Of a stretch of DNA of 64,000 bases, positions 32,652-54,537 are shown piece by piece. A program made the translations under genes and the position numbers. Numbering within the stretch: position 1 is the first letter of the stretch; the number at the start of each line of letters is the position of its first letter. The stretch is from positions 124,001 to 188,000 of the forward strand of contig JAACJP010000054.1 of the NCBI GenBank assembly GCA_013368375.1, given 5' to 3'. The DNA is from Tricholomella constricta (taxonomy: Eukaryota; Basidiomycota; Agaricomycetes; Agaricales; Lyophyllaceae). The notes below the pieces were generated by a model that was given only the letters and a program-made list of their open reading frames with translations, was not told the DNA's origin and searched no databases.

Positions 32652-33350
32652 GTGGAGGGGCAAGGACGAATTTCTGAAGCCCATCATCGTGAATGGAGAC
32701 GCTCGTCGTATCAAGGGTGCGTTTCGCATTCTTTGACATTTTAAAAAGGCTAAGACCCTGTGCATTAGATGACAATACACTGTTCCTTTTCAACTATAGG
32801 TTGGAACACATGCAAGAGATCGCCTCTGACATTGGGCTTCCAGATAAGCCAATGAAGGTCGACGTTCTCAAGAATCCCGCGAGCATCAACGTGCACTTGG
32901 TCGAGTAGTAGACGGCTCACACTTCCAGCAGCACATCACTGCAATATTTCGTTACAATGCCGAATTCCTGTTCATGTCGACGTCACGTTCTTCTTTGATG
33001 GCGGCATCAAGGACAAGAGGCGACTCGTGAATCCTTCTCCAAAAGTCGCCACCTCCGACCAGCCAAGATGAGCATGGACGGCGTTGCCGTAAAGGTCGCA
33101 GAGGTGCTCGAGAAGGAGCAAAATTCCGTCATGTGCAACGATGCCGCGCCCTATATGGTACTCTAGCTCGTTTCCGCTTTCGATGGCTTGTTTTCTTTCC
33201 ATTTGTTCAGAATCCGTGCGGGATGGGTCGGGCAAATGGGTGTGTACGAAGCCGCTGTCAAGGCCATCACAGACGCTGTCATGGGCACTATACAAGGCTG
33301 CGGAGGAGATGGGAACCGGACGGGGATGTAATCGACGTCAAGGAAGAAGG
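32652..33350 (+). pseudogene. Cofactor-independent phosphoglycerate mutase, broken fragment
   Basis: Pieces in order across shifting frames match the central part of 2,3-bisphosphoglycerate-independent phosphoglycerate mutase (glycolysis, 3-PG to 2-PG): DEFLKPIIVNGDARRIK, then DNTLFLFNYRLEHMQEIAS and GLPDKPMKVDVLKN, then ITAIFRYNAEFLF, then VTFFFDGGIKDKRRLVNPSP and KVATSDQP, then VAEVLEKEQNSVMCND, and finally GVYEAAVKAITDAVMGTI. The family has very similar blocks (EFLKPI.V, FNYR.DR.REI, HVTFF.NGG, IPSPKVATYD, GV..A..A...D..IG.I). Stops and frame changes interrupt it near 32745, 32908, 33067 and 33165. The metal-binding N-terminal DGWG region was not found, so this is a truncated relic. The unit 2 copy is at 59700-60398. 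Confidence 0.82.
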
Positions 33351-33359
33351 GGAGTAGGG

Positions 33360-35045
33360 TATCTGTGGGCGAGGGAAAGGGAGGGAGGGACGAAGACCTG
33401 GGACATATATACTCACTGGCGCCTCCTTCTCCCCTTCCCTCCTTCTTCAGAACATCGCACGGAGGTGTCCCACCTGCTCTTCGCCGCCTCGTACTGCTCG
33501 AGTGCAGCGGCGTAGTTGATGTGCTCGCCCCCAACACCAACCCCGATGCCCACGCTAGCTGTCGTTATCGCTCCATCCCGTCTTCATGAAGGACTCACTA
33601 GTGGTGCGCCCATCCCCCTGTGCTCCAGCGATGCCTCCCCGACCCCGCTAGAACGCCGTCTCTGCCATCAAGCAGCGTCCCGATCCACCGGCCTGGGGTC
33701 GCAGTTGCACTCCACAGCTCATCGGCCACCCAGCCCCAAACTCCACATCCACATCCACCTCCCGCCCCTCCCTCCTTTCCTTTTCCGCCCCCTCTGTCTC
33801 CATCGACGATCACACCACGGATGCGGAAAAACCAGAACTAGGAGAGGGGACCGGGGGTTGAGTTCGGCTCCAGGACATGGTCAGGCCACTTGCTTCAGAT
33901 GGGGATATGTGTTTGGCGGGGGGCCGGAGATGGACGCCGAGCAGGTATTCCCGGCCTTGGTAGTGGAGAATGTAACCGAGATGCGCTTGAGGCATGGGGA
34001 GACTGGTGTTGTCTCGCACAGCACGAGCTACAGCACATCCGCACACATCCTTGCATGCGCCCACGACGGGGCATGGTGTCCAACGAGTCGAAGACAACCT
34101 TGATTACCGCGTGATCGATATTATCGTCTCGTTCAGTGCTGAGGATGGCGTCCAAGCATGGCTTGAGGGATTGCAGGACGGTTAGGGCGGTGGAGGCGTT
34201 GTGCGTGGTGGGTGTGTGTGGCAGGTGTCACGAGAGAGGGGCGGGTTCCTCAGCAAGAGCCATAATGGCGAGATGGAAGCGGATGGGGTCCATCTGATTG
34301 ACTGGTCGAGGCGGCGGACGGGCAGACTGGGGGCAAGGAGGTTTGGCAGCGGCGATATGGGTGCTGGTAATACAGTCACCGATCAGGCTTTTCCACCGAA
34401 ACTGACAAAAGTCCACGCTGCCGCACTTCACCTCACCACATCCGCGCGCTGTGCCTTCTGGTGTGTGCTCTGACAGCTACTCTGGTGTAACCTGCTCAGC
34501 GCCCACCTCGATACAGTTCCCTTAACCACGCTCCACCCGCCGGGCTCGGTCACCACTCCGCTCAACCTCGCTTCAACATCGTCAATCTGTTGCCTGAGCA
34601 GAGCAGCATCGACGATACCCTCCGGGATGCCGAGGACCGCATGCTGAGTGACGTTGCTTACGCCCACAATGCCATCTAAGCCATCTAATCTATGGCAAGT
34701 CTCTCTTTACCTCACCCGCCCCGCAGATACCCACACCTTCCTTAACGCCTCCTACCGCTCCCTCCTGCGCTTCTACGACCTCTCCTCACCTCTGCCCTCC
34801 TTGCCTCCTAACCGGTTCTTTTCGTGTTCCTTTTTAATCTTTTCCCTTTCTTTCTGTGCTAGCCATCAAACAGTTCAAGCTCGGCAGAGATAGATTTGTC
34901 ACCGGCGCTGTACGAGCAGTCGTTGGATTGTTTGGCATGTGCGATAGGTGGGCGTGCGGCCGCCTGTGTTCCAGGTGCGTCTGCGCTTCCTTGATATCTG
35001 GGTCCAGCTTTGAGACGATCCAGATCTGTGTTAATACATCCTATC
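33360..35045. other. Stretch between the two housekeeping relics, unassigned
   Basis: Contains the second copy of the local duplication (34005-34490) and a short open piece near 34570-34680 (INLLPEQSSIDDTLRDAEDR in one frame) that looks protein-like but that I cannot place. No intact gene. Confidence 0.4.
34005..34490. repeat. Local duplication, copy 2
   Basis: Partner of 31325-31773. It is diverged and differs by several indels, including extra sequence near 34110-34145. Unit 2 copies are at about 58373-58821 and 61053-61538. Confidence 0.65.
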
Positions 35046-35049
35046 AATG

Positions 35050-36068
35050 CTGGCAAGCTATAAGTGGCGCCTACGATATGCGCTCATGATGATTGCGGCC
35101 GTTAGAGAGGGTAAAGGCAAGGTCAGTTTGATTTGTCTCCCTTCTTTTTGTCCGGAGTTTGGCCGATGACGTCCTTTGCTAGGTAATGCAAAACGAGCTT
35201 GGAGGATCGTCAAGTAAGTGGAAGTGGCCCTCAAGACGGCGTTTGACGATGCTTCAGCTGATGTTGTGTCTAGTGGCGACCAGCAACTCCCATCTGCGTG
35301 TGAGGTATGTGGCGTGCCAAAGTCTTTCTGCCGTTCATCCAGATGGGAGTCAACATGCTATGCAGTATTGCCAGGGGACAGTTGTGCATGAACCTCGAGG
35401 TACGTGTTCCTTCGCGGTGCAGACACGGGTTTGGAAGTAATTGATGCCGACTCGCAATTTCTAAGAAGTCATTGAGAAGAAGTACAGACCTTGGAGGATT
35501 CGAAGCCCAGGTATGTCCTCCCGCCAGCTCTCCATCTGTGCTGCTGGCCACCAACTATGCACACAGACCATTGGCATGCCGCTGCTGCCATCGTCAAGCT
35601 TGCGCAGGTGTCAAGCGTGATACACTCCTCCCGTACCTCGATCCAATTGTAGAGCATTGTCTAAAGCTTGTAGACCCCGCTACCCTGTGACTATCAAGCA
35701 ATATGTGCAAGGACAGGTGATGACAATGTTGGCGATGGTAGCAGATGCTGGCGAGCTTTCGTTTGTAAAGGTGGGTGCTGTTTTGTCTCCTTCTTTTCAA
35801 GCTATTCGTAAGACAGAAGCCATTCGATTTATCTTTCCCTCATCTGCGGACTCCATCTCTGGTTCTGGGCGTTCGACCTGGGTTCACGACTTTTAGAATG
35901 AAGGACATGAAGTGTGTGGGTTTCATTGGTGCGTCCTCACCCCTCCTTCAGCGATTTTTTCTAATGACAAAACAACCGTCATTTATCTTCTAGCAATCGC
36001 CGTTGGCAGAGATGTATTCAGGTCGGACTTGAACACGCTCTTGGAGCTGCTCATACACATACAGAGTG
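35050..36068 (+). pseudogene. Importin-beta (Kap121/Pse1/IPO5-type karyopherin), broken fragment
   Basis: Recognisable HEAT-repeat pieces in order: YKWRLRYALMMIAAVREGKG joined across a normal-looking intron to KVMQNELGG; HLRVRYVACQSL; GQLCMNLE (in unit 2 frame); EVIEKKYRPW; HAAAAIVKLAQ; GVKRDTLLPYLDPIVEHCLK; KQYVQGQVMTMLAMVADAGE; RMKDMKCVGFI joined across an intron to AIAVGRDVFRSDLNTLLELL. These correspond to the central part of nuclear import receptors of the Kap121/IPO5 group, which has VMQNEL, HPRVRYAACQ, LIPYLDPIVERLLKLL and AIAVGRDVFRPD. Frameshifts and stops separate several blocks. Introns are retained, so it is a DNA-level duplicate, not a retrocopy. Unit 2 copy at 62098-63115. Confidence 0.9.
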
Positions 36069-36891
36069 AGTGCTAAACCTCTGTCCCCTTCGGTATCTGC
36101 TGATGCCATGGACGCCCCATCGATCGTGCATCCTTACTCGATATGATGGCGACGGGATATCTACTTCAAGCCTCGCGGTCTGCAGGGGACCCTGCCGAGT
36201 ATGCAAGCACATCTTTGTTCACGGTCAACACTGTGCAGCCATGGTTGATGCTGTATACCTCGCCTTCTGACCGAACAGCGCACACATAGAAACTCCAGAG
36301 GCGAGTCTATCCTTTACAATGTTTTGATTTCATTCAACTGTCTACTATTTGCTTGTTCTGTTCCCGATTCAATTTATTGGCTGTGATTCGATCTAACTGA
36401 CTGCGAACACGCTCTATTGGGGCACATAGAGATAGACAGGCAGTGGGCTCGGAAACCTCAAGGTGCGTAGTATGACCCTATCTACACGCCAAACCAAATT
36501 AATTTAGATCATACCTAGTTGCTGCCACTTTAACACTCAGAATGTCAATGCAGAGACTCATGAAGCAACTTGCAGTGCGCGTGGTGCAGAGAAAATGAGA
36601 ATGGGACAGCATGTGAGGCTGTGCGCGGGTGAAGGGTTCTGAGCAAGCGGGCAGGCCAACATTGTTATTATCAATTTGCGTAGTCTCGCTCGTGAACTTA
36701 CTACATAGCGAGCTTCATAGCTGTACCCCCCAGTGTTCGGTGTTTGTGAATAATGCACAATTCTTCTGTAAAATTTTTGGGAGTAAGTATTACGGAGACC
36801 TTCGAGGGTACATATACAGTCTCAAGAGAGTTGGTTCGCCTTCATTCGACGAAGATCTCGCAGAGATCTGGTGCTGCTATTGCAGTGGGGC
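36069..36891. other. Flank of the karyopherin relic, no further gene recognised
   Basis: Further karyopherin exons could be expected here, but I could not match any block with confidence. ORFs are short. Confidence 0.35.
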
Positions 36892-37200
36892 AGCCAAGCC
36901 CCGAGCCTGAGCCCATGCCTGTGCCTAAAGCCCGAAGCCCCAGAGTCCCGAGCTCTTGCCCTGCGCTCCAAGCCCCAAGCTCCAAAGCCCGAAGCCCCAG
37001 CAGCCAAGCCCCAAGCCCGAGCTCATGCTCATGCCAAAAGCCCGAAGCCCCAGAGTCCCGAGCTTTTGTCCTGCGCTCCAAGCCCCAAGCCCCAAAGCCC
37101 GAAGCCCCAAAGTCCGCCCATGCCACGTGCTCCAAGCCTCAAGCCCGTACCCGAAGCCCCGAGCCTATGCCCAAAGGCCGCGCCCTGTGGCTGCAATCCC
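36892..37200. repeat. Minisatellite of AAGCCC-type blocks
   Basis: Degenerate direct repeats built from CCCGAAGCCCCAGAGTCCCG and CTCCAAGCCCCAAGC-like blocks. Several frames on both strands stay open through it, giving Pro/Ser/Ala/Lys- and Gly/Leu-rich artefact peptides. The unit 2 copy starts near 63939 and runs off the window. Confidence 0.85.
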
Positions 37201-37263
37201 GACGGATGGTTAGTTTGCTTGCGGGCATTGGTGAACATGATTGTGTGCACATGAATTGATCGC

Positions 37264-37282
37264 GCACCCTCACTGAGGGTGC
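37264..37282. repeat. Palindrome GCACCCTCA-C-TGAGGGTGC
   Basis: 9-bp perfect arms around a single C, same family as the palindromes at 27.5 and 48.3-51 kb. It lies 38 bp upstream of the retrotransposon target duplication and is the interrupted first unit of the satellite that resumes at 48288. Confidence 0.9.
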
Positions 37283-37319
37283 TGTGCATGTCGTTCCATC
37301 TACTGTTCTCTGTACCTTT

Positions 37320-37324
37320 GGGAG
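37320..37324. repeat. Target-site duplication, left copy (GGGAG)
   Basis: Five bases GGGAG immediately before the TG of the 5' LTR. The same five follow the CA of the 3' LTR at 48283-48287. This is the expected footprint of a Ty3/gypsy integrase. Confidence 0.95.
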
Positions 37325-37545
37325 TGTAAGGACGCCCACTATCTTATCTAATCTTGGTTATCTAATCGTATCTTATCGAGACGATTACGCTATTGTTTGG
37401 CAACACCTTCTGGTGTTGCCTATTTAATTCATTACATTAATTAAGTATAAACAACCTTGTACACCTATACGTAGCAATCGACAGACTTGTCAAGCTTACG
37501 TCTAGTGTGAACAACAAGGTCCCCAAATTCTGTAACCCCGTTACA
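37325..37545 (+). repeat. 5' LTR, 221 bp
   Basis: Starts TGTAAGGACG and ends CCCCGTTACA (TG...CA). Base by base I see no difference from 48062-48282. It contains a 9-bp-arm hairpin (GGCAACACC/GGTGTTGCC at 37399-37420) and a weaker one at 37363-37387. The U3/R/U5 borders cannot be set by eye. Confidence 0.97.
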
Positions 37546-37652
37546 TTTTTTTAAGCTACCTTGCTTTCTATTGCTGCGTACCCACGACATACGCAGAACC
37601 ACATTCCATTTAGAACAACCATCATCAAAAGAACCCACGAGACCCAGACCCG
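37546..37652 (+). other. Retrotransposon leader without an obvious tRNA primer site
   Basis: The base after the LTR begins a T-run (TTTTTTTAAGCTACC). The TGG expected of a site complementary to a tRNA CCA end is not found within the first bases. Priming may use an internal tRNA segment or self-priming, as in the Tf1 group; neither is shown here. Confidence 0.5.
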
Positions 37653-40600
37653 ATGACACCAACTCCCACATCCGGAAAGAGCCGAACTCCGGTCTTCGAG
37701 GATGCGCTCGCAGCGCATCCTCCATCACAACTTCCACTGCAACCAGTGGAAGTCGGATCAGTCGCTGGTGGACAAAGTCCACCAGCGCAGAATACACTAG
37801 GAGTAGAATCGGAGGAACTTTGGCCAATAGCAAGCACCAATGTGCCTGGGAGCCTGGCCGACGAATTGGCCAGGTCACATCGACCTGGCTCCACGGCGGG
37901 AAGCAGATGGCCAGACAGCCGTCTGTCAAATAGAGCGTTCGGGGCGTCCACCCTGAGCATAATCAAGATGGAGTCGGACGAAGACGACTTGTCCGACCCC
38001 GAGGCTAATGAAGAAGAGGCCAGCGAAAGGGAATTGCTTGCGCTTCAAGTGAAGCAATTCTGGGACACCACCGATGTGGTTAGCGAGCATCGGCGAAGGC
38101 GACTGGAGGAACGAGCGGATAGGCTCGTTCTGCGATCTACCGGAGCACAATCCGTTGGAGAAATGGTCGCACAAGCATATGCCGACCGATACTTGGAAGC
38201 GCTGTCCGTAGTAGTTACGGAATACAGGAAGAAGTACCCTAAGGGAACTTCGAATTCAGCAGTCAGCTCGATCGCTGGGACGCCTGTACCTAAGAAAGCC
38301 TCGTTCAACAAAGGAAAAGGTCGTTGGGATGACCTCTTCACTCCTCAAGCAGTGGCTGCCGGATCGAACCAGCCTCTTGATGAGGCTGCCATGGCAGTAT
38401 CGGCGCTGCATCAAGCGCGACAGTTAGGAGAATCTGACGACGATTATCGTCGTCGGTCTGCGGCAGCGAAGCGCGAAAGAATGACTCGTGAAGAGCATCT
38501 TGCGCAACCACAGGGATCCAAATGGGCCCCTGTTAGTGAGTCTACGTTAGACCCACCCACGGAACGTAAGTATACAACCCCGCAAGCAGCTGGCGACGAA
38601 AGCGCGCCAGCTATTCAAGTACCTATGGATGCGAAGGATGGCCGTGTTCCATTAGCGAAAGATTGGAACAACCGAGTCGCATATCAGCATTTGAGAAACG
38701 CTGATTTATCACGGAGCAAGTTCACGAATTATGATGATCAAGAAGTCGTCTTCGAAGGACATATGCCCGTAGATGAGATGGCGAGGCAATGGGCCTCGCA
38801 AACTCAAGGTTCGGATGGTGGACTGGGAAATGGGGCCGTCGGAAAACATAATACGACGGCGACGGCTAACGGCCGTCAAGACATGCGGGTTCGTATAAGT
38901 GAACCCACTTCACATGCTCAGCCTCGATTTCAAAGTCGAGGCTACTCAATGCCTGACCCGATTCGCAGGAGTCAATCAATTGCGGACGGAATATATGCTG
39001 CTGGAGAGCAGCATAAAACTAAGATGCACGAACGGTTGCATCAACTGATACACGAGCGACTGGCTGTACGCCTATCGCTCCCTGATGGTATGAAATCTCG
39101 CCGTGCGGACTCAAAGTCCGTAGGCACTTATAGTGGAAGCGCCAAGTTTGGCGAATTGGAAGAATGGCTAGCCAGCCTTGTCGTGATGCTAGCCGTGAGC
39201 CAGTTTGGAGGAGCAGAACGCGACCAAGAGCGCGTTCTGATAACATCTGAGTTCCTTGATGGTGAAGCTCGGAAATGGTACAATCGCCATGTTATCCATG
39301 TGAACCGCGAAAAGCAGTCCTGGACGTTTGAAGACGTCATACTAGGGCTGTACGATCGGTTCGTGCTGCCTTCAACCATGCAGGATGCTCGTAACGACTT
39401 TAACGCCGTTACCTATTCGGCGAGCAAAGGCATACAAGGTCTGTATGACGACCTTGTGGATCATGCCATGAACATGGCAGCAAGAACGGATGATTGGACG
39501 TTCCTGGAGAAATTTCTCAAAACACTTCCGCGCGATATGCGGAAGGCATTATTCGATGACGGGCTATCACCCGAAATCAATACAGCCCAAGAGTTCCTAG
39601 CGGTGGGCCTAGCACTTCAAGCCACCCAGAAAACGGCTGATTACTTTGAGCGGACCATAACCGCTCAGCGAAGTCAACCGAGCCAAATGCGGAAACCAGA
39701 TGGGGGGCGAGTAAACGCTCCACACAACAATTTCAACAGGCCTCGACGGGTGTATAGCGCAGTAAATGAAAAGCCATATGTCAAGCCAGCGTATCAGGAT
39801 CAATCTGGACGTGGAGAGCAGAAGCCCCACGTCGAAAAACCAGCAATAAAGACAGGAGATCGTCCGCGTTTCGATCAACCTAAAAACCATGATCATCACA
39901 ACCACCCTCCGGGGGAAGTGTGCTTTAATTGTGGAAAACTAGGGCATTTTGCAAAAGATTGCAAACAGCCCAAGAAACAGCGAGCGTTCCTAAGGGCCGC
40001 ACGTACAGCGGCACCTGACGCGGCAAGTGAGGCGGACGATGAAGACACGTCTCCCGAGGACCCGGACGGACGAGACAATGGACGCCCTGATACAGAGGCG
40101 GACAATGAAGACGAAGGCGATGAGTTCGTAGACATGGAGGTCTACGAAAATGAATACTATGCTCGGGACGATGAGACCGAGCGTATGTTTGCAATGACAG
40201 AAGTAATTGCGTCAGAAGAACGCAATGATAAACCACCAGTTCGCAAAGTTAAAGTGCGGACGGGGAGGGACAAAATTGCTCGTCCCGTAGTTCCGATAAA
40301 GGACAAGGAGTGCCTTGTCACCTACATTAACGTAGGTGGACATGAGGCTTGGACCCTTTGGGATTCCGGGAGTACAACTACCGGACTTACGCCGTCATTC
40401 GCTCAAGTGGCCGATATTCGAGTATTTCCGCTGGAGGATCCATTAATCCTCCAGCTCGGGACTAAAGGAAGTCGGGCCACAGTAAACTTTGGTACGACGG
40501 TGGAAGCCGCTCTGCCAGGGTTTAAAGGCAAGGTCTACATGGACCTTGCTAACTTTGATCGATACGACGTGATTATAGGCACGCCGTTTATGCGCGCAAA

Positions 40601-40733
40601 TAACGTCGTGCTGGACTTTAACCGTGACGAAGTTGTCGTCAATGGAGTCGCTATACCAGCGACTAAGGTAAAAATGGAGGATACCGATGGCCGAGCTAGA
40701 CGCCATCGGTCATTGGAGAAACGAAGAGAATGA
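37653..40733 (+). CDS. gag: Gag polyprotein with zinc knuckle and aspartic protease, ends at UGA
   Basis: 1026 codons from ATG to TGA. The N-terminal 450 residues are polar and acidic. Residues about 480-670 are a retrotransposon-gag capsid-like region (FLDGEARKWYNRHV, WTFEDVILGLYDRFVLPS). A CCHC nucleic-acid-binding knuckle, CFNCGKLGHFAKDC, starts near residue 757. After an acidic linker, a retropepsin-like protease follows with its catalytic motif in LWDSGSTT (Asp about 904) and a second half containing DVIIGTPFM. In the same frame, sequence continues open after the TGA to pol, so Gag-Pol is probably made by readthrough (see 40731-40809). Capsid formation and RNA packaging are the known roles of the family. 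Confidence 0.93.
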   Translation: MTPTPTSGKSRTPVFEDALAAHPPSQLPLQPVEVGSVAGGQSPPAQNTLGVESEELWPIASTNVPGSLADELARSHRPGSTAGSRWPDSRLSNRAFGASTLSIIKMESDEDDLSDPEANEEEASERELLALQVKQFWDTTDVVSEHRRRRLEERADRLVLRSTGAQSVGEMVAQAYADRYLEALSVVVTEYRKKYPKGTSNSAVSSIAGTPVPKKASFNKGKGRWDDLFTPQAVAAGSNQPLDEAAMAVSALHQARQLGESDDDYRRRSAAAKRERMTREEHLAQPQGSKWAPVSESTLDPPTERKYTTPQAAGDESAPAIQVPMDAKDGRVPLAKDWNNRVAYQHLRNADLSRSKFTNYDDQEVVFEGHMPVDEMARQWASQTQGSDGGLGNGAVGKHNTTATANGRQDMRVRISEPTSHAQPRFQSRGYSMPDPIRRSQSIADGIYAAGEQHKTKMHERLHQLIHERLAVRLSLPDGMKSRRADSKSVGTYSGSAKFGELEEWLASLVVMLAVSQFGGAERDQERVLITSEFLDGEARKWYNRHVIHVNREKQSWTFEDVILGLYDRFVLPSTMQDARNDFNAVTYSASKGIQGLYDDLVDHAMNMAARTDDWTFLEKFLKTLPRDMRKALFDDGLSPEINTAQEFLAVGLALQATQKTADYFERTITAQRSQPSQMRKPDGGRVNAPHNNFNRPRRVYSAVNEKPYVKPAYQDQSGRGEQKPHVEKPAIKTGDRPRFDQPKNHDHHNHPPGEVCFNCGKLGHFAKDCKQPKKQRAFLRAARTAAPDAASEADDEDTSPEDPDGRDNGRPDTEADNEDEGDEFVDMEVYENEYYARDDETERMFAMTEVIASEERNDKPPVRKVKVRTGRDKIARPVVPIKDKECLVTYINVGGHEAWTLWDSGSTTTGLTPSFAQVADIRVFPLEDPLILQLGTKGSRATVNFGTTVEAALPGFKGKVYMDLANFDRYDVIIGTPFMRANNVVLDFNRDEVVVNGVAIPATKVKMEDTDGRARRHRSLEKRRE

Positions 40734-40809
40734 CTAAAAGTAACAGTAGAAGATGACGATGATCCTGATAATGAGGGTAGGCCGATAAACAGCCTACCGA
40801 AGGATCATC
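40731..40809 (+). promoter_or_regulatory. Candidate UGA readthrough signal: UGA-CUA plus nested stem-loop
   Basis: The gag stop reads TGA followed by CTA, an established leaky context (UGA CUA). The same frame stays open for 354 nt up to the first pol ATG and then throughout pol. Starting 24 nt after the stop, an outer stem GATGATCCT (40758-40766) pairs perfectly with AGGATCATC (40801-40809). An inner stem GGTAGGC (40776-40782) pairs with GCCTACC (40792-40798) around a 9-nt loop. Gag:Gag-Pol ratio control by stop readthrough is known in gammaretroviruses; use here is inferred. Confidence 0.7.
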
Positions 40810-41087
40810 CAGCACTTTTATTATCCGAGGAAGAGTTTCAAGAAACCCTTAAGGAGGGGGATAAGCCACCTCCGAAGAAGAGAAAACCCCAACGACGACA
40901 GCAGAAGGCAAAAAACGAGCCTTCGAACGAACGAGCACAGGTTGACGAGCCATGCGAAGAACATCAGCGCGATAATGAAGCGCGTAAGACGAGCGGGGCC
41001 GACAAGGATACGGAATCAGAGCCGTATACGAATACGAGTAATCGATCATTTTGGGATAGACCAAATCCACATCCACAATATGAGTGG

Positions 41088-44000
41088 ATGTTCGACCCAC
41101 GGATGCCGCAAGAATGGAACGCAGTAATAGCGTCAATGCGGGCTCACGAAGGAAGAAATGTAGGCACGCGAGGACAAGCGTACCGAAATCCACGGCCTGA
41201 GGAAGTATCGGAGCCAACGGAAATGAATTTTCCGGTGAATATACAACGGGCTAAACGGCCGTTGTATCGGTTACCAGTGAAGGATGAGAGTGACTTTGCT
41301 CTCGTAAAACTACGAGCTAGGTTTGATGTTAAACCTAGCAATAAAGACACAGCGCACATTCGCGCTGCAAGAACGGTGAACGGAAAAGGTAAGGCACCCA
41401 ATGGAGGCCTTACCGCGGAAGATTATCCACGACTTCGCCAGCAATGGCATGACGAATTCGAAGATATGGTGGGTGGTACGAAACAACAGCTACCACCCTG
41501 GCGGGAAGTCAATCACGAGATTACTCTCGTCGATGATGAGAAACAGTACCAGTACCACGCGCCGAGGTGCCCAATGTCCCTTCGCGAGGAATTCTACGCG
41601 AAGGTCAATCGGTATACGGATTCTAAATGGTGGGAGCCTCGTTCGGTGAAGCAAGCAGCGCCGCTGCTATGTATCCCGAAAAAAGACGGCTCCCTGAGAA
41701 CACCCTTGGACGCACGCCAGCGTAACGATAACACGATCAAGGACGTTACGCCCTTGCCAGACCAGGAAGTTATTCGCGAAGATGTCGCTAGGGGAAAAAT
41801 ACGGTCCAAAATTGACTTAACGGATGCGTATGAACAAGTACGCATCCTTGAAAAAGATGTACATAAAACCGCCTTCGCAACGATAGCGGGAACATACATC
41901 AGTAACATCATGCAAATCGGGGACTGTAATGCTCCCGCGACATTTCAACGATTAATGACGTCCATCTTTCGGGACGTCATTGGGAAGTTCATGCATGTAT
42001 ACTTGGACGATATATTCATATTCTCGAACTCTATTGAGGAACATGAAGTTGTGTTCGAACGATTACGCGAACAATCACTCTACCTTAAATGGAAGAAATG
42101 CGAATTGTATTCGGATCGCGTTGATTGCCTTGGTCATATTATCGACGACCAAGGAATTCACCCTGACGCCGACAAACTGGCACGGATCCGTGACTGGAGG
42201 ATACCACGGAATTACAACGATATCCAACGATTCGTTGGACTTGTTAACTATCTGGGACAGTTTCTCCCAGATATATCTGCATACACTGGTCCACTAATGG
42301 CGATGACCGAGAATGGGTCGCCATTTTATTGGAGACCAATTCATCAGCGATGCTTTGAAATGATAAAGCATATATGCTGCACAACGCCAATTATTCGGCC
42401 GATTCAACCGAAGACAGGCGAACCAATTTGGATTATCTGTGACGCCTCCAAGTCAGGCGTCGGTGCGATGTATGGACAAGGACCTACATGGATCCAAGCC
42501 CAGCCGGCTGGATTCATGTCCAAAAAATTCACTAATGCACAGCAGAATTATGCTGTGCATGAACTCGAGACCTTAGCTATTCTCGAAGTGTTACTTAAGT
42601 GGGAGGATAAACTTGTGGGCTATAAAATCCACATCATTACCGACCATAAAGCCCTCAAATTCTTTAAGACCCAGGTGAATTTATCACCTAGGCAGCGTCG
42701 ATGGATGGAATACATGTCGCGATTTAACTTCGACATAACCTATGTGAAAGGCGAACTGAACAAAGTCGCCGACTGTCTATCGCGATACTTCGAGAGCGAT
42801 AACCATCAAGATCGTTACGACGTCCACGACTTCGTAGCTGCTGATGCTAGAATCGATCCTACTGGTGAAGATCTACCAGTACCACGATACCATGAAATCG
42901 TGGAAAAAGTAGTTGAGATTCGAGCGATGAAAGACGTAGAAATACGTCGAAGCAAGCGTCTTCAAGAACGCCAGGAGGATCGAGATGTCGAGGCTCAGAT
43001 AATGGAGGCTGCGGCACCAAGTACCGCATCCGGAACATCGTCAAACCCTCAGAAAAGCATGAGTCCAACCGAACGGGAACGTACGGTCGGAGATATTGTC
43101 CTCGGGAGGGACACAGTTTCTCCTCCCCCAGACAAAACGGATGAAAAGATCCGTCACGACGTTATCCTTGGATACCCAAAGGATAAACTATTTTCAGTTA
43201 TTCTCGCTAACCCCATGGACTTTCGTACGTTCACCACGAAAGACAATCTCATTTGGACCACGAACGCTATAAATGATAGCGTTCTATGTATACCGCGAGA
43301 ACCCGAGCTCATCACCACAATTATTGAGCAAGCCCATAAAACTATGGGCCATTTCGGTGCCGAACGGACTACTGAATATATTCGACGATGGTATTGGTGG
43401 CCATCACTAGCCACGACCGTGCGTACGTTTTGTAAAACGTGCGAGTACTGCCAGCAGATCAAGACGTCGAATCAAAAACCGTCAGGGAAACTACACTCCC
43501 TGCCAGTACCAACTAAGCCTTGGGATTCTATCGGAATGGACTTTATCGGTCCATTTCCAGAATCAAAGGGATATAATTACCTATGGGTAGTAATTTGTCA
43601 TATGACGAGTATGGTGCATATGATACCCATACATACGACGATGACAGCAGCCCAATTATCATGGGTATACTTACGGGAGATCGTCAGGCTCCATGGCCTG
43701 CCAAGCTCGATCGTAAGTGATCGAGACTCTAAGTTTACGTCACGCTGGTGGCGCGAACTACATAAGTTATTAGGAGCTAAGCTCCTAATGTCGACATCTT
43801 TCCATCCTCAGACGGATGGACAAACGGAGCGAGCCAATCGTAGTATTGGCCAGATATTTCGTGCCGTTGTGAGGCATGACCAAAAGGATTGGGTAGATTG
43901 TATACCCATGGCTGAGTTCGCGATAAATGCGAGCGTATCGGCTACTACCAAGTTCGCTCCATTTGAGCTGAATAGTGGATACATGCCGTCCATGTTGAAA

Positions 44001-44621
44001 GAGATACGCTCAGACAGCGTAATACCGAAGGGAATTCGAGAGTATGCGGAACGCGCATTGCAGAATATAGCGGAGGCGCATGACGCTATAATCGAAGCGC
44101 GCGTATTTCAAACGCGCGAGGCAAACAGGCGCCGATCCGCTGGTCCAGAAATAAAGGGGGGAGACTTGGTGTATTTATCCACCAAGAACTTGAACCTCCC
44201 CAAGGGACGCGCCCGTAAATTGTGCCCGAAATTCGTCGGGCCCTACAAAGTGCTGAAGGCCATGCCAGACACGTCGAACTATACGTTGGAATTACCTACG
44301 GCACTAATGGAGCGCCGGATACATCCAACATTTCATATATCGATGTTGCGCCCATACTACGCAACGAATGATACAATGTTCCCTAATAGAACTCATCCGG
44401 AGCCCTACGATTTTGGGGCGCCGGATAATCACGAATGGTTTGTAGAAGACATTTTGGGCCATAGATGGACCCAAAATAATACTGTGGAATATCAGGTTAG
44501 GTGGAGCCTGGGAGACACCACCTGGGAACCGCACACCAATTGTAACAAGTTAGCGGCACTGGATCGCTACTTGGAACTACAAGGGGTGAAGAGCGCGTCG
44601 AGATTACCGCGACGAACCTAG
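41088..44621 (+). CDS. pol: Pol polyprotein: reverse transcriptase, RNase H, integrase, chromodomain
   Basis: 1177 codons from the first ATG. The frame is open upstream to 40734 and continuous with gag except for the UGA, so the true N-terminus is probably the readthrough product. Visible parts: RT with LPDQEVIREDVARGK, SKIDLTDAYEQVRI and the active site YLDDIFIF (about 305-312); RNase H starting IWIICDASKSGVGAMYG (Asp about 452); integrase zinc motif HKTMGHFGAERT...CKTCEYC; catalytic core Asp near 818 (GMDFIGPF), Asp near 877 (SDRDSKF) and Glu near 914 (DGQTERANRS) with about 35 residues between the last two; a GPYKV module near 1045; and a chromodomain at the C-terminus (VEDILGHRW...EYQVRWSLGDTTWEPH). 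All catalytic residues expected of the family appear present. Confidence 0.96.
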   Translation: MFDPRMPQEWNAVIASMRAHEGRNVGTRGQAYRNPRPEEVSEPTEMNFPVNIQRAKRPLYRLPVKDESDFALVKLRARFDVKPSNKDTAHIRAARTVNGKGKAPNGGLTAEDYPRLRQQWHDEFEDMVGGTKQQLPPWREVNHEITLVDDEKQYQYHAPRCPMSLREEFYAKVNRYTDSKWWEPRSVKQAAPLLCIPKKDGSLRTPLDARQRNDNTIKDVTPLPDQEVIREDVARGKIRSKIDLTDAYEQVRILEKDVHKTAFATIAGTYISNIMQIGDCNAPATFQRLMTSIFRDVIGKFMHVYLDDIFIFSNSIEEHEVVFERLREQSLYLKWKKCELYSDRVDCLGHIIDDQGIHPDADKLARIRDWRIPRNYNDIQRFVGLVNYLGQFLPDISAYTGPLMAMTENGSPFYWRPIHQRCFEMIKHICCTTPIIRPIQPKTGEPIWIICDASKSGVGAMYGQGPTWIQAQPAGFMSKKFTNAQQNYAVHELETLAILEVLLKWEDKLVGYKIHIITDHKALKFFKTQVNLSPRQRRWMEYMSRFNFDITYVKGELNKVADCLSRYFESDNHQDRYDVHDFVAADARIDPTGEDLPVPRYHEIVEKVVEIRAMKDVEIRRSKRLQERQEDRDVEAQIMEAAAPSTASGTSSNPQKSMSPTERERTVGDIVLGRDTVSPPPDKTDEKIRHDVILGYPKDKLFSVILANPMDFRTFTTKDNLIWTTNAINDSVLCIPREPELITTIIEQAHKTMGHFGAERTTEYIRRWYWWPSLATTVRTFCKTCEYCQQIKTSNQKPSGKLHSLPVPTKPWDSIGMDFIGPFPESKGYNYLWVVICHMTSMVHMIPIHTTMTAAQLSWVYLREIVRLHGLPSSIVSDRDSKFTSRWWRELHKLLGAKLLMSTSFHPQTDGQTERANRSIGQIFRAVVRHDQKDWVDCIPMAEFAINASVSATTKFAPFELNSGYMPSMLKEIRSDSVIPKGIREYAERALQNIAEAHDAIIEARVFQTREANRRRSAGPEIKGGDLVYLSTKNLNLPKGRARKLCPKFVGPYKVLKAMPDTSNYTLELPTALMERRIHPTFHISMLRPYYATNDTMFPNRTHPEPYDFGAPDNHEWFVEDILGHRWTQNNTVEYQVRWSLGDTTWEPHTNCNKLAALDRYLELQGVKSASRLPRRT

Positions 44622-44749
44622 AATGTGGCGCGGTCATGTGACCACGGCGATCAGGAAAATTACATAACCATCAAAAGTTATGACAGAAGGTTAAATATGT
44701 TTGGCGCTAGACGCGCAACCGATTTTCAACCCTCTCAACACAAACCAAC

Positions 44750-47704
44750 ATGTACCCCAGCCAAGTACCAACCTCCAGCAACGACGCGATTCGGGGCGGC
44801 GACAGCCGCACCGACCAGCAAAATTTGAACTCGGGGCCGAGTTCAAGTGGGGAGGGAGTGCAGGGGCGCGCGGAAAATGCGCCCCTGCCCCCAACTTACA
44901 TGGGCTCGCAGCCCCAATTATACCAATATCCTCCGGTTGGCCATATGAGCCAACCGCCCCATCAGGGGCAACAAACATTTCCGACGGTTGGCCATATGAG
45001 CCAACCGCACCACCAAGGGCAACAACCACCTATGGGTGGTTTTTACCCGCCAGGGCTGGCATTCCAACAGATGCCATCAATGGCGGGTTTCATGGGGTAC
45101 CCGCAACCGACGTGGTACCCCCAAATGCCCATGCAGCCTGTACCGCACAATACGCGGTACAACGAATCGGAGAAGATGGAGGTAGACGACCAAAGTCGTC
45201 TGCAAGCAAATGTTCCGCCGGCGCAAGTGGTGCGCGGCGAACAGGTGCGGCAACATGTCGCACCGAATGCAGACGACAAAGCGTCGTCGGCGTCGAGTTC
45301 GCGGAGGATGGCAGACGATCGCAGAGTATCGCCTGCGTCAAGTTCGAGGAGACCATTCGCAGACGATGGTCTCCTTTCTTCTCTCTTGGATCGATTGGAA
45401 GACGCGGGTATTCACCGCGAATTTTGTGATTTCTTGGACGATGGAATGGCGCAGCTGGTTATAACCCAGCTGCTTGATGCATACGATGGAGTTCGCGCGG
45501 ATTTGAGACGCGTGAAAGCGAGAGAAGCGGCCATGGCTGAGCAACTCAGCCTGGCAAGAAAACGGCCGGCAGTAGCATCGCCGGATCGCGGGGAGGGACC
45601 ATCGTCCCGACCCATAAAAAGGCAGCAAATGGAGGTGCGTCGAGAAGAACGCACCTCATACGAGCCGCGACGACAAGAGAGGAGCGAGCCCAGGCGTCCG
45701 GAACGACGCCTGGAACAGGAGAATCGGCGGTACAACCGCCACCCCGACCAGGAAGTGTGGCGTGACGAACGCCCACTTGATTATGGTTCTCAACGGGAAG
45801 AGCGCCGAGAGGATCAAGGAACGCGCGAAGTGCGCCCCTTACCTGCTCGAGAAATCGAGCGCACGGCGTCGACATCGTCGACGTCAGCGGAAGCAAAGCC
45901 GCAAAACCTATCCGGAGCGTTACCGCCCCCGGGAGAAAGCCGGGTGCGGAACCCAGAACGAGGTTCTCAGAAGAAGGAACCTGTTGGCAAATATACTTTG
46001 CCAGCGCCAGCCCCTGCACCACCTAGTACGATGGTGCAGCCCCCAACGCCGCCATCCAAAGGCAAACAGAAGGCATCGGATCCATATGCCGAGGCTATGG
46101 ATGAATCGGACTGGGGCGAGTCGTCTGACGACGACAAGCCTGTCAGCAAGAAGAAGGCTGCCGGGCAAAAGCAGCATCGCGAGAATATGGCTCGCAAAGC
46201 TGAGAAGGAGATGCCGGGGCGGATCCCTGACGAGCTCGGGGTGGTCTTCATCAACGACCGCCACGAAAGGGACAACCGCTTTTGGGATATGCTAGTACGG
46301 ACGATATATGTATCGTCCGCCCAGAATCGTGCCTACGCACTAGGCACTGCAGCGCGAGTGTCCGAAAGCGAGTTGGGGACGGGACACAATTCTCGTCCCC
46401 CATCGGGACGGCTATATGCCGTCGCACCACGCGGGTTCCCAATGAACCCTCGTGAAGTTGATCAGTTGTATGCACTGATCAACGATCGGCGCCCCGGCGT
46501 GACGGATGAAGAGCGGGCAGAGGCCTTTATGCTCTTTAGGGAGTTCCGGCGAGTCTCCCTCTCGGTAGCGCCCCATTTGCGCGACCGATCCATGGCTCGA
46601 GCAGCCATGGATGAATTTAGAAGCGTCAACCGACCGTTCGATACACGGTCACCCATTTGGCAGGCCGCGCCAATTAGGCGGCCTGGGAGGGCATTCGAAT
46701 ATAGGCCGGACAAGCCTACACGAGGCGCTGGCCTGCCTCAGCCAGGCCCCGACCATGCCCTCGATGTCGAGCACTGGTGCCGACATATGATTCACCATGG
46801 GCGTATTGGTTCAAAAAACCAATACGGAGGAATCGTCATGGACTACCGGTTCCGCGTACATAGGCGCGGAACTTGGGGATACTTGTTGGCGAATGTACTA
46901 GCGCCAACTACCCACAGCATGCGGTCATGGTTCATGCGACTTTTCGCGACCATTACTGCGCGGCCATACCTCTACGCAGAGGCTGTGGCTGCCTATAACG
47001 AGGCCAATCCAGATCGGCCTTTCACACCGATCGAAGGCCCTGAGGTTACCATACCTCGCATCCAAGTGATCCCTCCGGAGGTGCGGATCACTGAACAAGG
47101 TGTCTTGCAACACCTTATCAACATTGGTATTCCAGTAAGCTGGATACACCATAGCTACACTTATGGTCTACATTATTTGGACCATAACTACTCTAACTCA
47201 GGTCCCTATAAGGACCTGTTCTGCAATGTTGACGACGATCGAGTTCGTCGTCTAGATGAAATGGGTGTTCCGCCCGCCATCCCTGAGTGGGATGGGTGGT
47301 ACCATCCCACCACCGACGACATCACGCGCATCCAAACACTGATGCACGTGGAATTCCAGACCGAATCACTAGACTGTCTAGTGAGTTCGGAATGGATGTT
47401 TGTGGGTGAAGACCCACACTTCCGAGGACTCCGTGTTCGGGTGGGGGAATATCTCCCCCCAGGCCTGCATCACCCAGCTTCATTGGGATCGACGTCCATC
47501 AACGTCGAAATGGCGGACCCGGCGGCAGCTATACCTGCCCCCGCGACACCCTCCACAGTCGTGGCAGCTCCAACTGGAGCTACCGAAACCCAAGTGGACC
47601 CCGTGTCGGCCCTTACAGGGCCTTTATCACTGGCGGTGATTACCACCAGCCAGGGTCCGGTGGACAACAACACCACCGACCCCGACACAGTGATGGAGTC
47701 ATAG
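44750..47704 (+). CDS. Third ORF of the retrotransposon, 984 aa, function unknown
   Basis: Lies 128 nt after the pol stop, in a different frame, in the position where env sits in errantiviruses. It has no signal peptide or membrane helix, so I do not call it env. N-terminus: Gln/Pro-rich with two near-copies of GHMSQP.HQGQQ. Residues about 205-280 are a predicted helical segment (SLLDRLEDAGIHREFCDFLD...VKAREAAMAEQL). Then comes a long Arg/Glu-rich low-complexity region, an acidic patch (DESDWGESSDDD) with basic KKKAAGQK, and a folded-looking C-terminal half rich in Trp, Tyr and His (VEHWCRHMIHHGRIG, GIVMDYRFRVHRRGTWGYLL, PVSWIHHSYTYGLHYLDHNY). Similar unnamed proteins occur with basidiomycete gypsy elements as far as I recall. 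Possible roles: accessory structural or nucleic-acid-binding protein (inference). Confidence 0.75.
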   Translation: MYPSQVPTSSNDAIRGGDSRTDQQNLNSGPSSSGEGVQGRAENAPLPPTYMGSQPQLYQYPPVGHMSQPPHQGQQTFPTVGHMSQPHHQGQQPPMGGFYPPGLAFQQMPSMAGFMGYPQPTWYPQMPMQPVPHNTRYNESEKMEVDDQSRLQANVPPAQVVRGEQVRQHVAPNADDKASSASSSRRMADDRRVSPASSSRRPFADDGLLSSLLDRLEDAGIHREFCDFLDDGMAQLVITQLLDAYDGVRADLRRVKAREAAMAEQLSLARKRPAVASPDRGEGPSSRPIKRQQMEVRREERTSYEPRRQERSEPRRPERRLEQENRRYNRHPDQEVWRDERPLDYGSQREERREDQGTREVRPLPAREIERTASTSSTSAEAKPQNLSGALPPPGESRVRNPERGSQKKEPVGKYTLPAPAPAPPSTMVQPPTPPSKGKQKASDPYAEAMDESDWGESSDDDKPVSKKKAAGQKQHRENMARKAEKEMPGRIPDELGVVFINDRHERDNRFWDMLVRTIYVSSAQNRAYALGTAARVSESELGTGHNSRPPSGRLYAVAPRGFPMNPREVDQLYALINDRRPGVTDEERAEAFMLFREFRRVSLSVAPHLRDRSMARAAMDEFRSVNRPFDTRSPIWQAAPIRRPGRAFEYRPDKPTRGAGLPQPGPDHALDVEHWCRHMIHHGRIGSKNQYGGIVMDYRFRVHRRGTWGYLLANVLAPTTHSMRSWFMRLFATITARPYLYAEAVAAYNEANPDRPFTPIEGPEVTIPRIQVIPPEVRITEQGVLQHLINIGIPVSWIHHSYTYGLHYLDHNYSNSGPYKDLFCNVDDDRVRRLDEMGVPPAIPEWDGWYHPTTDDITRIQTLMHVEFQTESLDCLVSSEWMFVGEDPHFRGLRVRVGEYLPPGLHHPASLGSTSINVEMADPAAAIPAPATPSTVVAAPTGATETQVDPVSALTGPLSLAVITTSQGPVDNNTTDPDTVMES

Positions 47705-48050
47705 GTCGGGGAGACAACTTAATCCCCCCGTCAACGAACCGACCTCGACACGTAGGGCGTACCGCCGGGCCGACCGCCATTGTCAGGTGCAGATCACCTG
47801 ACTCCCGAGGAGCAATCCGCAGGTTGCGTATTAACGCAACATTGGATGTCCTCACCACCATTCATTGCCGCACGGCACTTTGAGGCCGTGCAGTGGCGCT
47901 AATGCATCCACTACTCGTTAAGTCAAGAATACGTATTATACCTACGTATTCTTGCATTATTTGATAGGTCTAAGTCGCCGGGACCTAGACCCTCCTTTTA
48001 CTCTCCTTTTTCTGCCCAACTCCCTGGTGAAGATCGCTACACGCGATCTT
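47705..48050 (+). other. Retrotransposon 3' noncoding region, hairpin-rich
   Basis: No ORF of note. It contains several perfect inverted repeats, the longest with 12-bp arms (CAAGAATACGTA at 47924-47935 and TACGTATTCTTG at 47943-47954), and AAGATCGC/GCGATCTT just before the polypurine tract. Confidence 0.8.
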
Positions 48051-48059
48051 AAAGGGGGG
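48051..48059 (+). promoter_or_regulatory. Polypurine tract
   Basis: AAAGGGGGG two bases before the 3' LTR, the position and composition expected of the plus-strand primer in reverse transcription. Confidence 0.9.
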
Positions 48060-48061
48060 TA

Positions 48062-48282
48062 TGTAAGGACGCCCACTATCTTATCTAATCTTGGTTATCT
48101 AATCGTATCTTATCGAGACGATTACGCTATTGTTTGGCAACACCTTCTGGTGTTGCCTATTTAATTCATTACATTAATTAAGTATAAACAACCTTGTACA
48201 CCTATACGTAGCAATCGACAGACTTGTCAAGCTTACGTCTAGTGTGAACAACAAGGTCCCCAAATTCTGTAACCCCGTTACA
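48062..48282 (+). repeat. 3' LTR, 221 bp
   Basis: Reads the same as the 5' LTR from TGTAAGGACG to CCCCGTTACA. Followed by the GGGAG target duplication. Confidence 0.97.
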
Positions 48283-48287
48283 GGGAG
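48283..48287. repeat. Target-site duplication, right copy (GGGAG)
   Basis: Matches 37320-37324. Confidence 0.95.
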
Positions 48288-52172: not shown

Positions 52173-54537
52173 CTAGTCATTGGCGGGGTGGATAACGACC
52201 CGTTATCCATTCAGATTTTGGACCCGATTTTTCTCAACATTGAAACAAGCAATTGGGGTCGGTCCAACAGAAAAATATATACTTTTACATGTCCTCTATC
52301 GCACGCACCAATCCGTTTGACGAGATATGTATTCTCGGTGGTGCTATGGACCACCAAAAAGAGGGGCAAAAGCGTGGGAAAGTACACTATTGAGTGTCTT
52401 CAACCCTTCCACATCCGAGACCTTGATATCGGAGGACGTTTCGATATACATTTGATGGAGGTCGCACTTTTTTTTATGAGAATCGGTGAAGAATTGAGTG
52501 AGCTATGGACAATTTTGTGTGGGGGATTCGGGTGGGTGGCTGATGTGGCTGTGCTGAAACTCGGTTCCGGGCAGTTTTAAATTTCTAAAATATTGACTAC
52601 AGCTGCGTGCGCCACAAACTCTTTTGCGTGCGCTGCGCACTTGGTATCTGCCCTCGTCCTGAATTTTCTGAAGGTGACGCGGCTGAACTGTTAAAACGCA
52701 TCAGGGATCTTTGTGGCCTGGCGCGCGGGCGCGTGAAGCGCGCGTCGGCAATAGCCGGCAACTGCCTCTCCTGCCATTCTGGCGCGTTCACCGCACTGTA
52801 GACCATCAAGAGTTTCTCTTTCCTCCACCACTACGACCAGAAGCCAATTATTTGTGAGTAAAAGCTTTCTCTAACGCTTTTTATTGCTGAAACTTACATT
52901 TAGATGATATATCTTTGCCCTCATCCACCTGCCTGATTATTTCGTCTTGGGCGCTCATGGGGCTTAAGGGGCAGGGCTGTGGGGTCGTGTGCATGCACTG
53001 TGAAGCGGATAACGATGGACATTGGCCTCTATGACTCTCAAGTAAGCATACATTGACATCTATCTGCCTCTTTTTAATTTTAGCATCTTTCAGCCGCAGT
53101 CTCAACATGCGCACGCGTCTACCGCCGTCCCCAGAGTACCAAGACCCAGAAGCCTCCATCGACTCGCTCCGGTACTCTCCTCGCCGCCGGCACAACATCA
53201 TCCTCTCCCTCAAGCCTTTCAAGATCGCGATGATCGTCGAACTCTTTGGGTACACGGGTGACCGTGCCTTTGGCCTGGACCTGGACCTGTTCTGCGTACA
53301 AATGGCTGGGACAGCGAGACGGCGCCAGAGCCTCTGATTGGGATGCTGAGTTGTGTTGTGTGTGTGCTAGCGGAGGAGGGTGTGAAGGGGTGGGCATTGC
53401 GAGTGCGGGAGAGTTTTGGAGTGGAATTTTGAAAAGTACGTACCCATACGCCATAAGGCTCGCTTTTTGTCTTTCTGCGCCACGTCATCCTCCCTTCACC
53501 CATATTTTCTCACTTCCTCTCTCTCTCGCATTGTCAATCAAGACACTCACACCACACTCATCCATCTCATAGTCTTCATCCTTGCTGGCACCGGCCGTCT
53601 CTCTCCCACCGCTCCCAACTGCGTCAAATCATCGCATACGACACAACCATCATGGCCATGCTGTATCGGGACCTCGATAACAGCAGCTTCTGACAAGATT
53701 CCGCTGGATAAGGTGGTGGCTGCTGTGCAATCGAAGGAAGAGGGAGAAGGGTCCAAGGTGCGTACATTATCTGTTTTCATATTCTCAATCATGTTAACGG
53801 CTTCGCAGTATCTAGAAACCTGGGTGCTCTGTCGAATACACAACGACCGCAGCAGCAACAGCCCCGACGGCGCCCGTTGTGCCTGCGCAAACTACGAGCT
53901 GGCGCAACTTTTAGCGTCGAGTCGGCGTCGACGGCGGCTCTGTCAGCTGTGTCTGCGGGGGGCGCTACTGGGAGGTCAGGGTCTGGGGTGGAGGAGGGGG
54001 ACAGAGATGAAGAAGAAGAGGGAGGTGCAGCTTAGGCAGCCGGAGAGGTGGGGAGGAGGTGGCACTGACGCGGGAGGGGCCCGAGGCGCAGCCAAAGTTG
54101 GAGGAATGGAGGGAGGAGGAGGAGTAGAAGGGGCAGGGTGGGAGCCGTGCGTGAATCCGGGGGAGGCGACGAAAGCGACGGACTGGTCAGGATGGATGTC
54201 GTTTCTTGTCGAGGTCGGCTGTTATGAAGACCACGACGGCAGGTCCTGCCGTGGACGAGAATGGGATGGACGAAGGTCAGGCGGGGGGTGCTCCTCCTCC
54301 TCCTCCTGCTGTAAGGGATGAGGTGACGCGCGGCAGGGCGCGGAGTGGGGACAAGGGTAAGGGAGAGCGGGGTGGTGGAGGGGTTGATGCAAACTTCGAG
54401 GGGCCGATGAAGCCCGCTTGGGAGAAGCAGGTGGTGGTGGTGCTTGCAGCATCGGTGACAAGAACACTACCATAGAACACTACCATAGTTTCGTACAGTG
54501 CAATACAGAAGAAATGTATCATGTGGTGGTATGACGT

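Follow-up and report, generated by a model that had tools for sequence, protein, structure and literature searches.

An LTR retrotransposon family of Tricholomella constricta appears to carry ordered RNA structure of RNA-phage strength

Results

The window, a 64,000-nt stretch of Tricholomella constricta contig JAACJP010000054.1, contains on its forward strand a young Ty3/gypsy-type LTR retrotransposon with hairpins from end to end (37325–48282), as delimited by an LTR repeat at an offset of 10737, open reading frames, domains, and hairpin counts. Its 5′ LTR (221 bp, TGTAAG...GTTACA; 37325–37545) and 3′ LTR (48062–48282) were identical at 221/221 positions, and the element is flanked by a 5-bp target-site duplication, GGGAG (37320–37324 and 48283–48287). 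ORF1 (37653–40733) encodes a gag-like protein with a CCHC zinc knuckle, ORF2 (41088–44621) is pol, with reverse transcriptase (RT), RNase H, integrase, and a weak chromodomain, and ORF3 (44750–47704) encodes 984 amino acids that matched no Pfam family. The RT-RNase H-integrase order, together with the LTRs and the short target duplication, is that of Ty3/gypsy elements; as for chromovirus features, Pfam Chromo scored 20.2 bits, below the curated threshold of 25.1. For self-priming of the Tf1/sushi type, in which the primer-binding site would pair with the start of the element's transcript, the sequence downstream of the LTR was compared with the LTR's reverse complement and revealed no match of at least 8 nt. 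UGA-CUA is a leaky stop context, and gag and pol are separated by an in-frame TGA CTA (40731–40736), probably a stop-codon readthrough site; TGA CTA or TGA CTC precedes pol in the window element and in the loci L039, L040, and L041. The sequence AAAGGGGGG (48051–48059), located 5′ of the 3′ LTR, is presumably the polypurine tract.

The initial annotation, which had listed at least 21 hairpins, was confirmed as real but understated. All 21 were present as perfect repeats, with those listed at 37699 and 40431 starting one base earlier and having longer arms (37698, arm 11; 40430, arm 10) and that at 43769 having an arm of 10. A full count of the 10,958-nt element, in which LTR hairpins enter twice, gave 32 perfect inverted repeats with an arm of at least 9 and a loop of 1–12 nt, and 112 with an arm of at least 7 and a loop of 1–15 nt. 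As claimed, they occurred in the LTRs, all three ORFs, and the noncoding parts, at densities of similar order in coding and noncoding sequence (9–18 per kb). Examples include an arm-9, loop-4 hairpin in the 5′ LTR (37399–37420) and the 3′ LTR (48136–48157), three adjoining hairpins with arms of 11, 10, and 11 (37698–37787), an arm-9 hairpin within the conserved RT stretch DAYEQVRI (41822–41847), arm-10 hairpins elsewhere in RT (41954–41981) and in ORF3 (44860–44888), and the longest, with an arm of 12, in the 3′ noncoding region (47924–47954). Non-overlapping hairpins with an arm of at least 6 and a loop of 3–14 nt (n = 161) covered 33% of the element, leaving a longest hairpin-free gap of at most 162 nt. 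The excess set in at arms of 5 and 6 (1.4 and 3.8 times chance) and, for arms of at least 6, lay chiefly in loops of 3–12 nt (149 observed vs 21.2 expected), with loops of 13–20 nt at 16 vs 17.1 and loops of 0–2 nt at about 2 times chance. The upper loop edge in the window family was sharp, with 15 hairpins at 12 nt and 1 at 13 nt. Loops were A-rich (0.352 vs 0.279), and no dominant motif was found among the 161 loops of the element.

The counts with an arm of at least 7 and a loop of at most 15 nt were 32, 31, and 37 in ORF1, ORF2, and ORF3, whereas codon-preserving shuffles (n = 100) gave means of 3.25–3.45 per ORF and a maximum of 7–8. Strict shuffles (n = 200), which keep the protein, the codons, and every dinucleotide count, gave 3.6, 3.9, and 4.3, with maxima of 13, 10, and 11; for an arm of at least 9 and a loop of at most 12 nt, 10, 8, and 11 hairpins were observed vs 0.33, 0.25, and 0.24 in strict shuffles. 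The proposal that synonymous choice builds the repeats is thus supported by counts far above those of codon-preserving shuffles. The host flank, said to be unlike the element, indeed held only 27 hairpins in 40,399 nt (0.67 per kb, 7/27 with an arm of at least 9; a duplicated stretch was counted once). Eleven other Ty3 loci of the same genome (L001–L008 and L046–L048) all fell inside their own shuffle range, the highest being L046 with 7 hairpins (shuffle mean, 3.9; maximum, 8). The refutation tests named in the initial annotation failed to refute it because the repeats are far more numerous than in codon shuffles, in host DNA, or in the other Ty3 elements, and its interpretation was partly supported.

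All 30 family loci fetched, the window copy included, were hairpin-rich (8.4–9.5 per kb), and L040, L041, L044, and L045 carried 5.1–6.1 per kb. Two families related to it, with 72% and 57% identity in pol, were likewise highly structured, one of them with mostly imperfect stems, and L039 had few perfect stems and a high folding excess. Proteins of relatives were also encountered in Lyophyllum atratum, L. shimeji, Agrocybe, and Phanerochaete. Perfect stems with arms of 8–10 vs one-mismatch stems numbered 50 vs 44 in the window family, 41 vs 183 in the L040 group, and 15 vs 95 in RNA phages; seven of the 11 other Ty3 loci were sampled for this comparison, for arm-length excess, and for G.T/A.C. 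Hairpin positions turned over between families: of the 31 pol hairpins, L039 fully kept 0, L040 2, and L041 1. Of the elements examined from this genome, those with the hairpin excess all belong to one clade.

Folding-energy excess, the difference between 350-nt pieces and their dinucleotide shuffles, was 27.4% for the sense and 22.1% for the antisense strand of the window element, and 30/30 sense pieces were positive (minimum, 7.8%). Sense/antisense values were 22/22% for L040, 20.5/21% for L041, and 18/12% for L039, compared with 30/23% for MS2 and 31/28% for Qbeta (the phage PP7 entered this analysis with 1,850 nt only). Two host stretches gave −1.5 to 0.7%, and three of the 11 other Ty3 loci 2.4–5.9%, or 4% overall; a further structure comparison of L039 took in two such loci. 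Sense folding exceeded antisense in the window element (p = 0.03), L039 (p = 1e-4), and L038, whose sequence lies antisense (26.5 vs 19.9, p = 3e-4), while L040 and L041 had no sense-strand preference in folding excess. In the predicted structures, 92/110 hairpins formed at a probability of at least 0.8; predicted pairs per kb barely exceeded those of host DNA (293 vs 287), the helices of the element being longer and more local. Imperfect stems revealed no preference for G.T over A.C, and the two were likewise equal in six pooled RNA phages.

At four-fold sites compared between the window copy and L038, divergence in stems vs elsewhere was 0.056 vs 0.172 in the gag part, 0.083 vs 0.158 in pol, and 0.149 vs 0.266 in the ORF3 part; in each of the three ORFs of the window family, silent sites in stems diverge at about half the rate of those outside them. 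Loops in the window family pol were as low as stems in silent change (3/39). Sister-group evidence was mixed: for L040/L041, stems in pol stood at 0.27 vs 0.52 elsewhere (20-nt flanks, 0.518), with no stem constraint in gag (0.525 vs 0.587) or ORF3 (0.211 vs 0.219); constraint in pol was weak for L040/L044 (0.407 vs about 0.505) and not significant for L041/L044 (p = 0.13). Counts and p values in the window copy/L038 comparison and in the pol comparisons of the window family, L040/L041, and L040/L044 take in both directions of each pair, which makes these p values optimistic. Third-position substitutions on four branches produced 28 hairpin gains vs 14.2 expected and 28 losses vs 59.3 expected, a loss expectation biased upward because it was drawn from unchanged sites, constrained ones among them; most window-branch changes in this test fall in a mosaic block. 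The L044 and L038 branches lost hairpins at the expected rate (16 vs 17.7 and 9 vs 8.0; arm-7 hairpins, 10 vs 6.5 and 10 vs 9.1). Between the window copy and L037, stem changes broke 32 pairs and 2 were compensatory, and the check for covarying arms among relatives, suggested earlier, found arms without clear covariation. The substitution cluster on the window copy's branch is the mosaic block between subfamilies, and subfamily hairpin differences are mainly single substitutions. Among 24 of the 30 family copies (L022, L025, L032, L036, L037, and L038 were dropped as diverged or partly misaligned), all young, 8/136 variants created a new hairpin vs about 3.3 expected. Judged from these sequences, silent mutations look restrained so as to keep hairpins.

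Discussion

We consider it likely that the sense RNA of this element is a genome-scale ordered RNA structure, built mainly by synonymous codons, in which selection maintains overall hairpin content and not particular hairpins. The RNA would be closely set with small local hairpins, with stems of 6–12 bp and loops of 3–12 nt, spanning the LTRs, the three ORFs, and the noncoding parts; synonymous codon choice would encode most of it, and selection would act on the total rather than on single hairpins. The target would be the genomic RNA, and the benefit would be compact packing into virus-like particles as well as resistance to silencing RNAs and nucleases, which would be offered only short duplexes. 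The earlier suggestion of compact genomic RNA for packaging therefore survives in part: a compact or shielded RNA is still the best role, although it is one that we infer. A bolder reading has nearly even prospects in our judgment: a clade of fungal LTR retrotransposons would have evolved genomic RNA with the order seen in single-stranded RNA phages, as a bulk silent-site trait acquired independently of RNA viruses, with the window family pushed to near-perfect uninterrupted short stems, either for shielding from small-RNA silencing without long duplexes or for particle packing.

Chance, base composition, or codon bias is next to inconceivable as the source of the hairpins; nothing was found in its favor, the codon, strict, and dinucleotide controls fail to reproduce the excess, and host DNA and the other Ty3 loci are without it. 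A mutational origin deserves more weight but is still improbable: the nascent strand may fold back during reverse transcription, copy itself, and return, perfecting imperfect inverted repeats with no benefit needed. The dominance of perfect arms in the window family, the sharp loop edge between 12 and 13 nt, and the new hairpins in young copies are consistent with such snap-back copying. Named in the initial annotation as an alternative to synonymous choice, it is unsupported as the main cause, since silent sites in stems change more slowly, L039 folds well in excess of its shuffles while having few perfect stems, subfamily hairpins differ mainly by single substitutions, and the clustered substitutions are the mosaic block. 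Unbiased self-copying should presumably yield reversion and paired change equally, whereas most changed stem pairs between the window copy and L037 were broken by one change (2 compensatory vs 32 broken pairs), unlike the paired or clustered templated changes expected as its signature. Snap-back copying may make a modest contribution to the hairpins.

Two further possibilities concern what reads the repeats. That they work as hairpins of single-stranded cDNA or as cruciforms, and not in RNA, fits the strand-symmetric pairing, without preference for G.T over A.C, and the equal sense and antisense folding excess of L040 and L041. We regard this DNA-level role as the less probable of the two, and a slim prospect, because the folding excess is larger for the sense strand in the element, in L038, and in L039, and because RNA phages are near-symmetric too, with G.T equal to A.C when pooled. 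Hairpins for sequence-specific packaging or translation pacing, dispersed and read one by one by Gag or ORF3, would accord with the CCHC knuckle in Gag, the A-rich loops, and the presence of hairpins everywhere in the element, but are doubtful to about the same degree as snap-back copying: the 161 loops share no dominant motif, positions are unconserved between families, and coding and noncoding densities are of like order.

Genome-wide RNA structure is already known in some RNA viruses, where its purpose is disputed; the matches listed, a scope outside of which most subscription journals lie, included no report of such structure in a retrotransposon. A clade of apparently phage-strength structure, a related family whose stems are mostly imperfect, and unstructured Ty3 loci within one nucleus form a natural comparison in which packaging, nuclease resistance, and escape from RNA silencing can be asked about. 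The fungal host is not known to have interferon. For elements structured in this way, dating by synonymous divergence may be biased.

Quasipalindrome template switching turns imperfect inverted repeats perfect. According to PMC7202029, this mutation acts at imperfect inverted repeats. It would leave changes in pairs or clusters, and the element has few of these outside the mosaic block. The yeast Ty3/Ty1 genomic RNA, as described in PMC11381356, likewise belongs to LTR retrotransposons and has structured regions distributed over its length; by that description it differs in being a mosaic, with stable regions that account for as much as 30% of the RNA, and in having an A-rich genome. RNA viruses with structured genomes, as presented in PMC7642675 and PMC3950689, share with the element a folding-energy excess that extends over the genome and its ORFs, numerous small stem-loops in succession, base pairings that are seldom kept between relatives, and paired sites that vary less. 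The excess given there is 7.5–10.7% for HCV, about 15% for SARS-CoV-2, and 23.4% for the highest vertebrate RNA virus, compared with 27% for the element, although the shuffle programs differ in detail. The property is common, but the replicon class is different, the element being an integrated fungal LTR retrotransposon, and unusually rich in long uninterrupted perfect stems. The RNA phages MS2, Qbeta, PP7, GA, and SP, whose replication is unrelated, have a folding-energy excess of the same size as that of the element, and the equality of G.T and A.C is shared by the pool of these five and AP205. Sense folding bias was significant in the element and MS2 but not in Qbeta, GA, or SP, the other phages of the four tested. 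The phages use imperfect stems, with perfect arms of 7 at 2 times chance, whereas the element has them at 7 times chance.

Results

Dense perfect hairpins in a Ty3/gypsy-type element

All 21 hairpins named in the initial annotation were present in the LTR retrotransposon at window positions 37325–48282 (forward strand), which in total holds 32 perfect inverted repeats with arms of 9 bp or more and loops of 12 nt or less, and 112 with arms of 7 or more and loops of 15 or less. Shuffles keeping the protein and codon usage, and a stricter set also keeping all dinucleotide counts, reached about one tenth of the observed number at arms of 7 or more and about 1/30 to 1/40 at arms of 9 or more; the reported density of hairpins is real. 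The excess over chance rose with arm length, from 3.8-fold at arm 6 to 45-fold at arm 10, and its bulk lay in loops of 3–12 nt, loops of 0–2 nt being enriched about twofold. The largest hairpin-free gap was at most 162 nt (arms of 6 or more, loops of 3–14).

Folding energies of 350-nt pieces, compared with dinucleotide shuffles, gave a mean excess of 27.4% for the sense and 22.1% for the antisense strand of the element; the excess in its host flanks was near zero. Predicted pairs per kb were alike in the element (293) and host DNA (287), the element having more helices of 7 bp or more (150 versus 88) and more pairs within 40 nt (72% versus 49%). In a 240-nt context, hairpin formation was predicted at 0.8 or more for 92 of 110 hairpins and under 0.2 for 11.

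The LTRs are identical on sequence comparison (221 bp each), and the target duplication GGGAG flanks the element on both sides. Pfam matches comprised a CCHC knuckle in the gag-like ORF1 and reverse transcriptase (RT), RNase H, integrase and a weak chromodomain match in ORF2 (pol). Just 5' of pol stands one TGA with CTA or CTC directly after it (window 40731–40736; also L039, L040 and L041, hence 4/4 family representatives compared), a probable programmed readthrough site; gag and pol share one frame across it in the window copy, L040 and L041, and the longest gag ORF of L039 lies in a different frame from pol. ORF3 (44750–47704, 984 aa), located after pol, matched no Pfam family; its predicted structure has a long, low-confidence N-terminus, a coiled coil near residues 232–270 and a helical domain near 499–837. 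Six relatives were found; those with a name, three in all, come from Lyophyllum, which makes a mushroom of that group the probable host.

A direct duplication with an offset of 27048 relates window ~25125–37324 to 52173–64000, the pieces compared being identical up to ~35.2 kb with a one-base shift beyond. It appears to extend to the 5' LTR, and another LTR occupies the matching place past the window (188372 on the same contig, C54); no second pol match on that contig occurred among the matches listed. The duplication is either a recent event or an assembly artefact. Ten copies of a host palindrome, CCCTCA(C/G)TGAGGG, were located in the window (27498, 27549, 37267, 48315, 48459, 48605, 49336, 50990, 54546 and 54597), and the duplicated stretch accounts for four of these.

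Hairpins as a trait of the element clade

Close copies are numerous in the sampled genome (44 Mb, 118 contigs), with at least 39 pol matches at 97–100% identity among the matches listed. All 30 fetched loci of the window family, the window copy included, carried 8.4–9.5 hairpins per kb across pol and flanks, relatives at 57% pol identity (L040, L041, L044 and L045) carried 5.1–6.1, and a sister family at 72% (L039 and L043) just 1.1–2.2 perfect ones. The folding score of this sister family was nonetheless strongly negative (z −11), so its stems must be mostly imperfect. Eleven sampled loci of other Ty3 elements, at 32–36% identity, all lay inside their own shuffle range. Within the sampling of this single genome, the trait is therefore one of the element clade and neither a feature of the host nor one of Ty3 elements at large. 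L039 and L043 display it in an imperfect style: the folding excess is strong in this sister family, as is the sense bias in L039. Loop lengths in L040 and L041 peaked at 2–7 nt, with an edge less sharp than in the element.

Perfection of stems is what distinguishes the window family: among 8–10 bp stems, 50 were perfect versus 44 with one mismatch, compared with 41 versus 183 in the L040 group, 3 versus 32 in L039 and 15 versus 95 in phages. Templated correction may contribute modestly to these perfect stems. The pol subfamilies are mosaic, in a pattern spanning the window copy, L032 and L038; divergence between the window copy and L032 is 6–11% over ~600 nt of RT, nearly all of it silent, and ~1% or less on both sides of that block.

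Probable selection at silent sites

Four-fold sites of the window family diverged less in stems than elsewhere in each of the three ORFs; the 20-nt hairpin flanks lacked such restraint, and the few loop sites shared it. Stem sites were likewise restrained in L040/L041 pol. Slower stem change was not found in gag and ORF3 of that pair, and restraint was not significant in L041/L044 pol. Along four branches, third-position substitutions made 28 hairpins versus 14.2 expected and damaged 28 versus 59.3 expected. The L041 branch and that of the window copy supplied most of this signal. Hairpin loss ran at the expected rate on L044 and, in other triples, on L038. Variants in very young copies were close to random, 8 of 136 making a hairpin (~3.3 expected) and 13 losing one (~16 expected). 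In pol of 24 young copies (loci within L009–L035), 70 of 106 single-copy variants were C>T or G>A, the pattern that cytosine deamination or RIP-like decay would leave.

Discussion

Our data indicate that ordered RNA structure at genome scale, shared by a clade of these LTR retrotransposons, is real and strong; no earlier report of such structure in LTR retrotransposons was found in the literature searched. Stem pairing in the elements is nearly strand-symmetric, which at first pointed to a role of the repeats in DNA. The RNA of RNA phages is certainly folded, however, and the same equality is seen in their imperfect stems. A significant sense bias was detected in the element, L038 (whose sequence file is antisense) and L039, and none in L040 or L041; among four phages, it was significant in MS2 and a tendency only in Qbeta, GA and SP. 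The symmetry shared with RNA phages, together with the sense bias in the three elements, therefore favours a structure acting in RNA, a role in DNA being the less likely alternative.

Selection would most likely act on a bulk property, the number of hairpins in the genomic RNA, without regard to individual ones. Hairpin positions accordingly turn over between families, their density being kept. The loops have no dominant motif, which makes a loop-specific binding code less probable. The benefit of such a bulk property could be compaction for packaging, or shielding from silencing or nucleases, and both fit. Short duplexes would be poor substrates for Dicer-like enzymes.

The folding excess of phage genomes by the same method was 30.2% (sense) and 22.7% (antisense) for MS2 and 31.0% and 28.3% for Qbeta. 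A published survey, whose shuffling program differs in detail from that used here, gives 7.5–10.7% for HCV, ~15% for SARS-CoV-2 and 23.4% for its top vertebrate RNA virus (PMC7642675).
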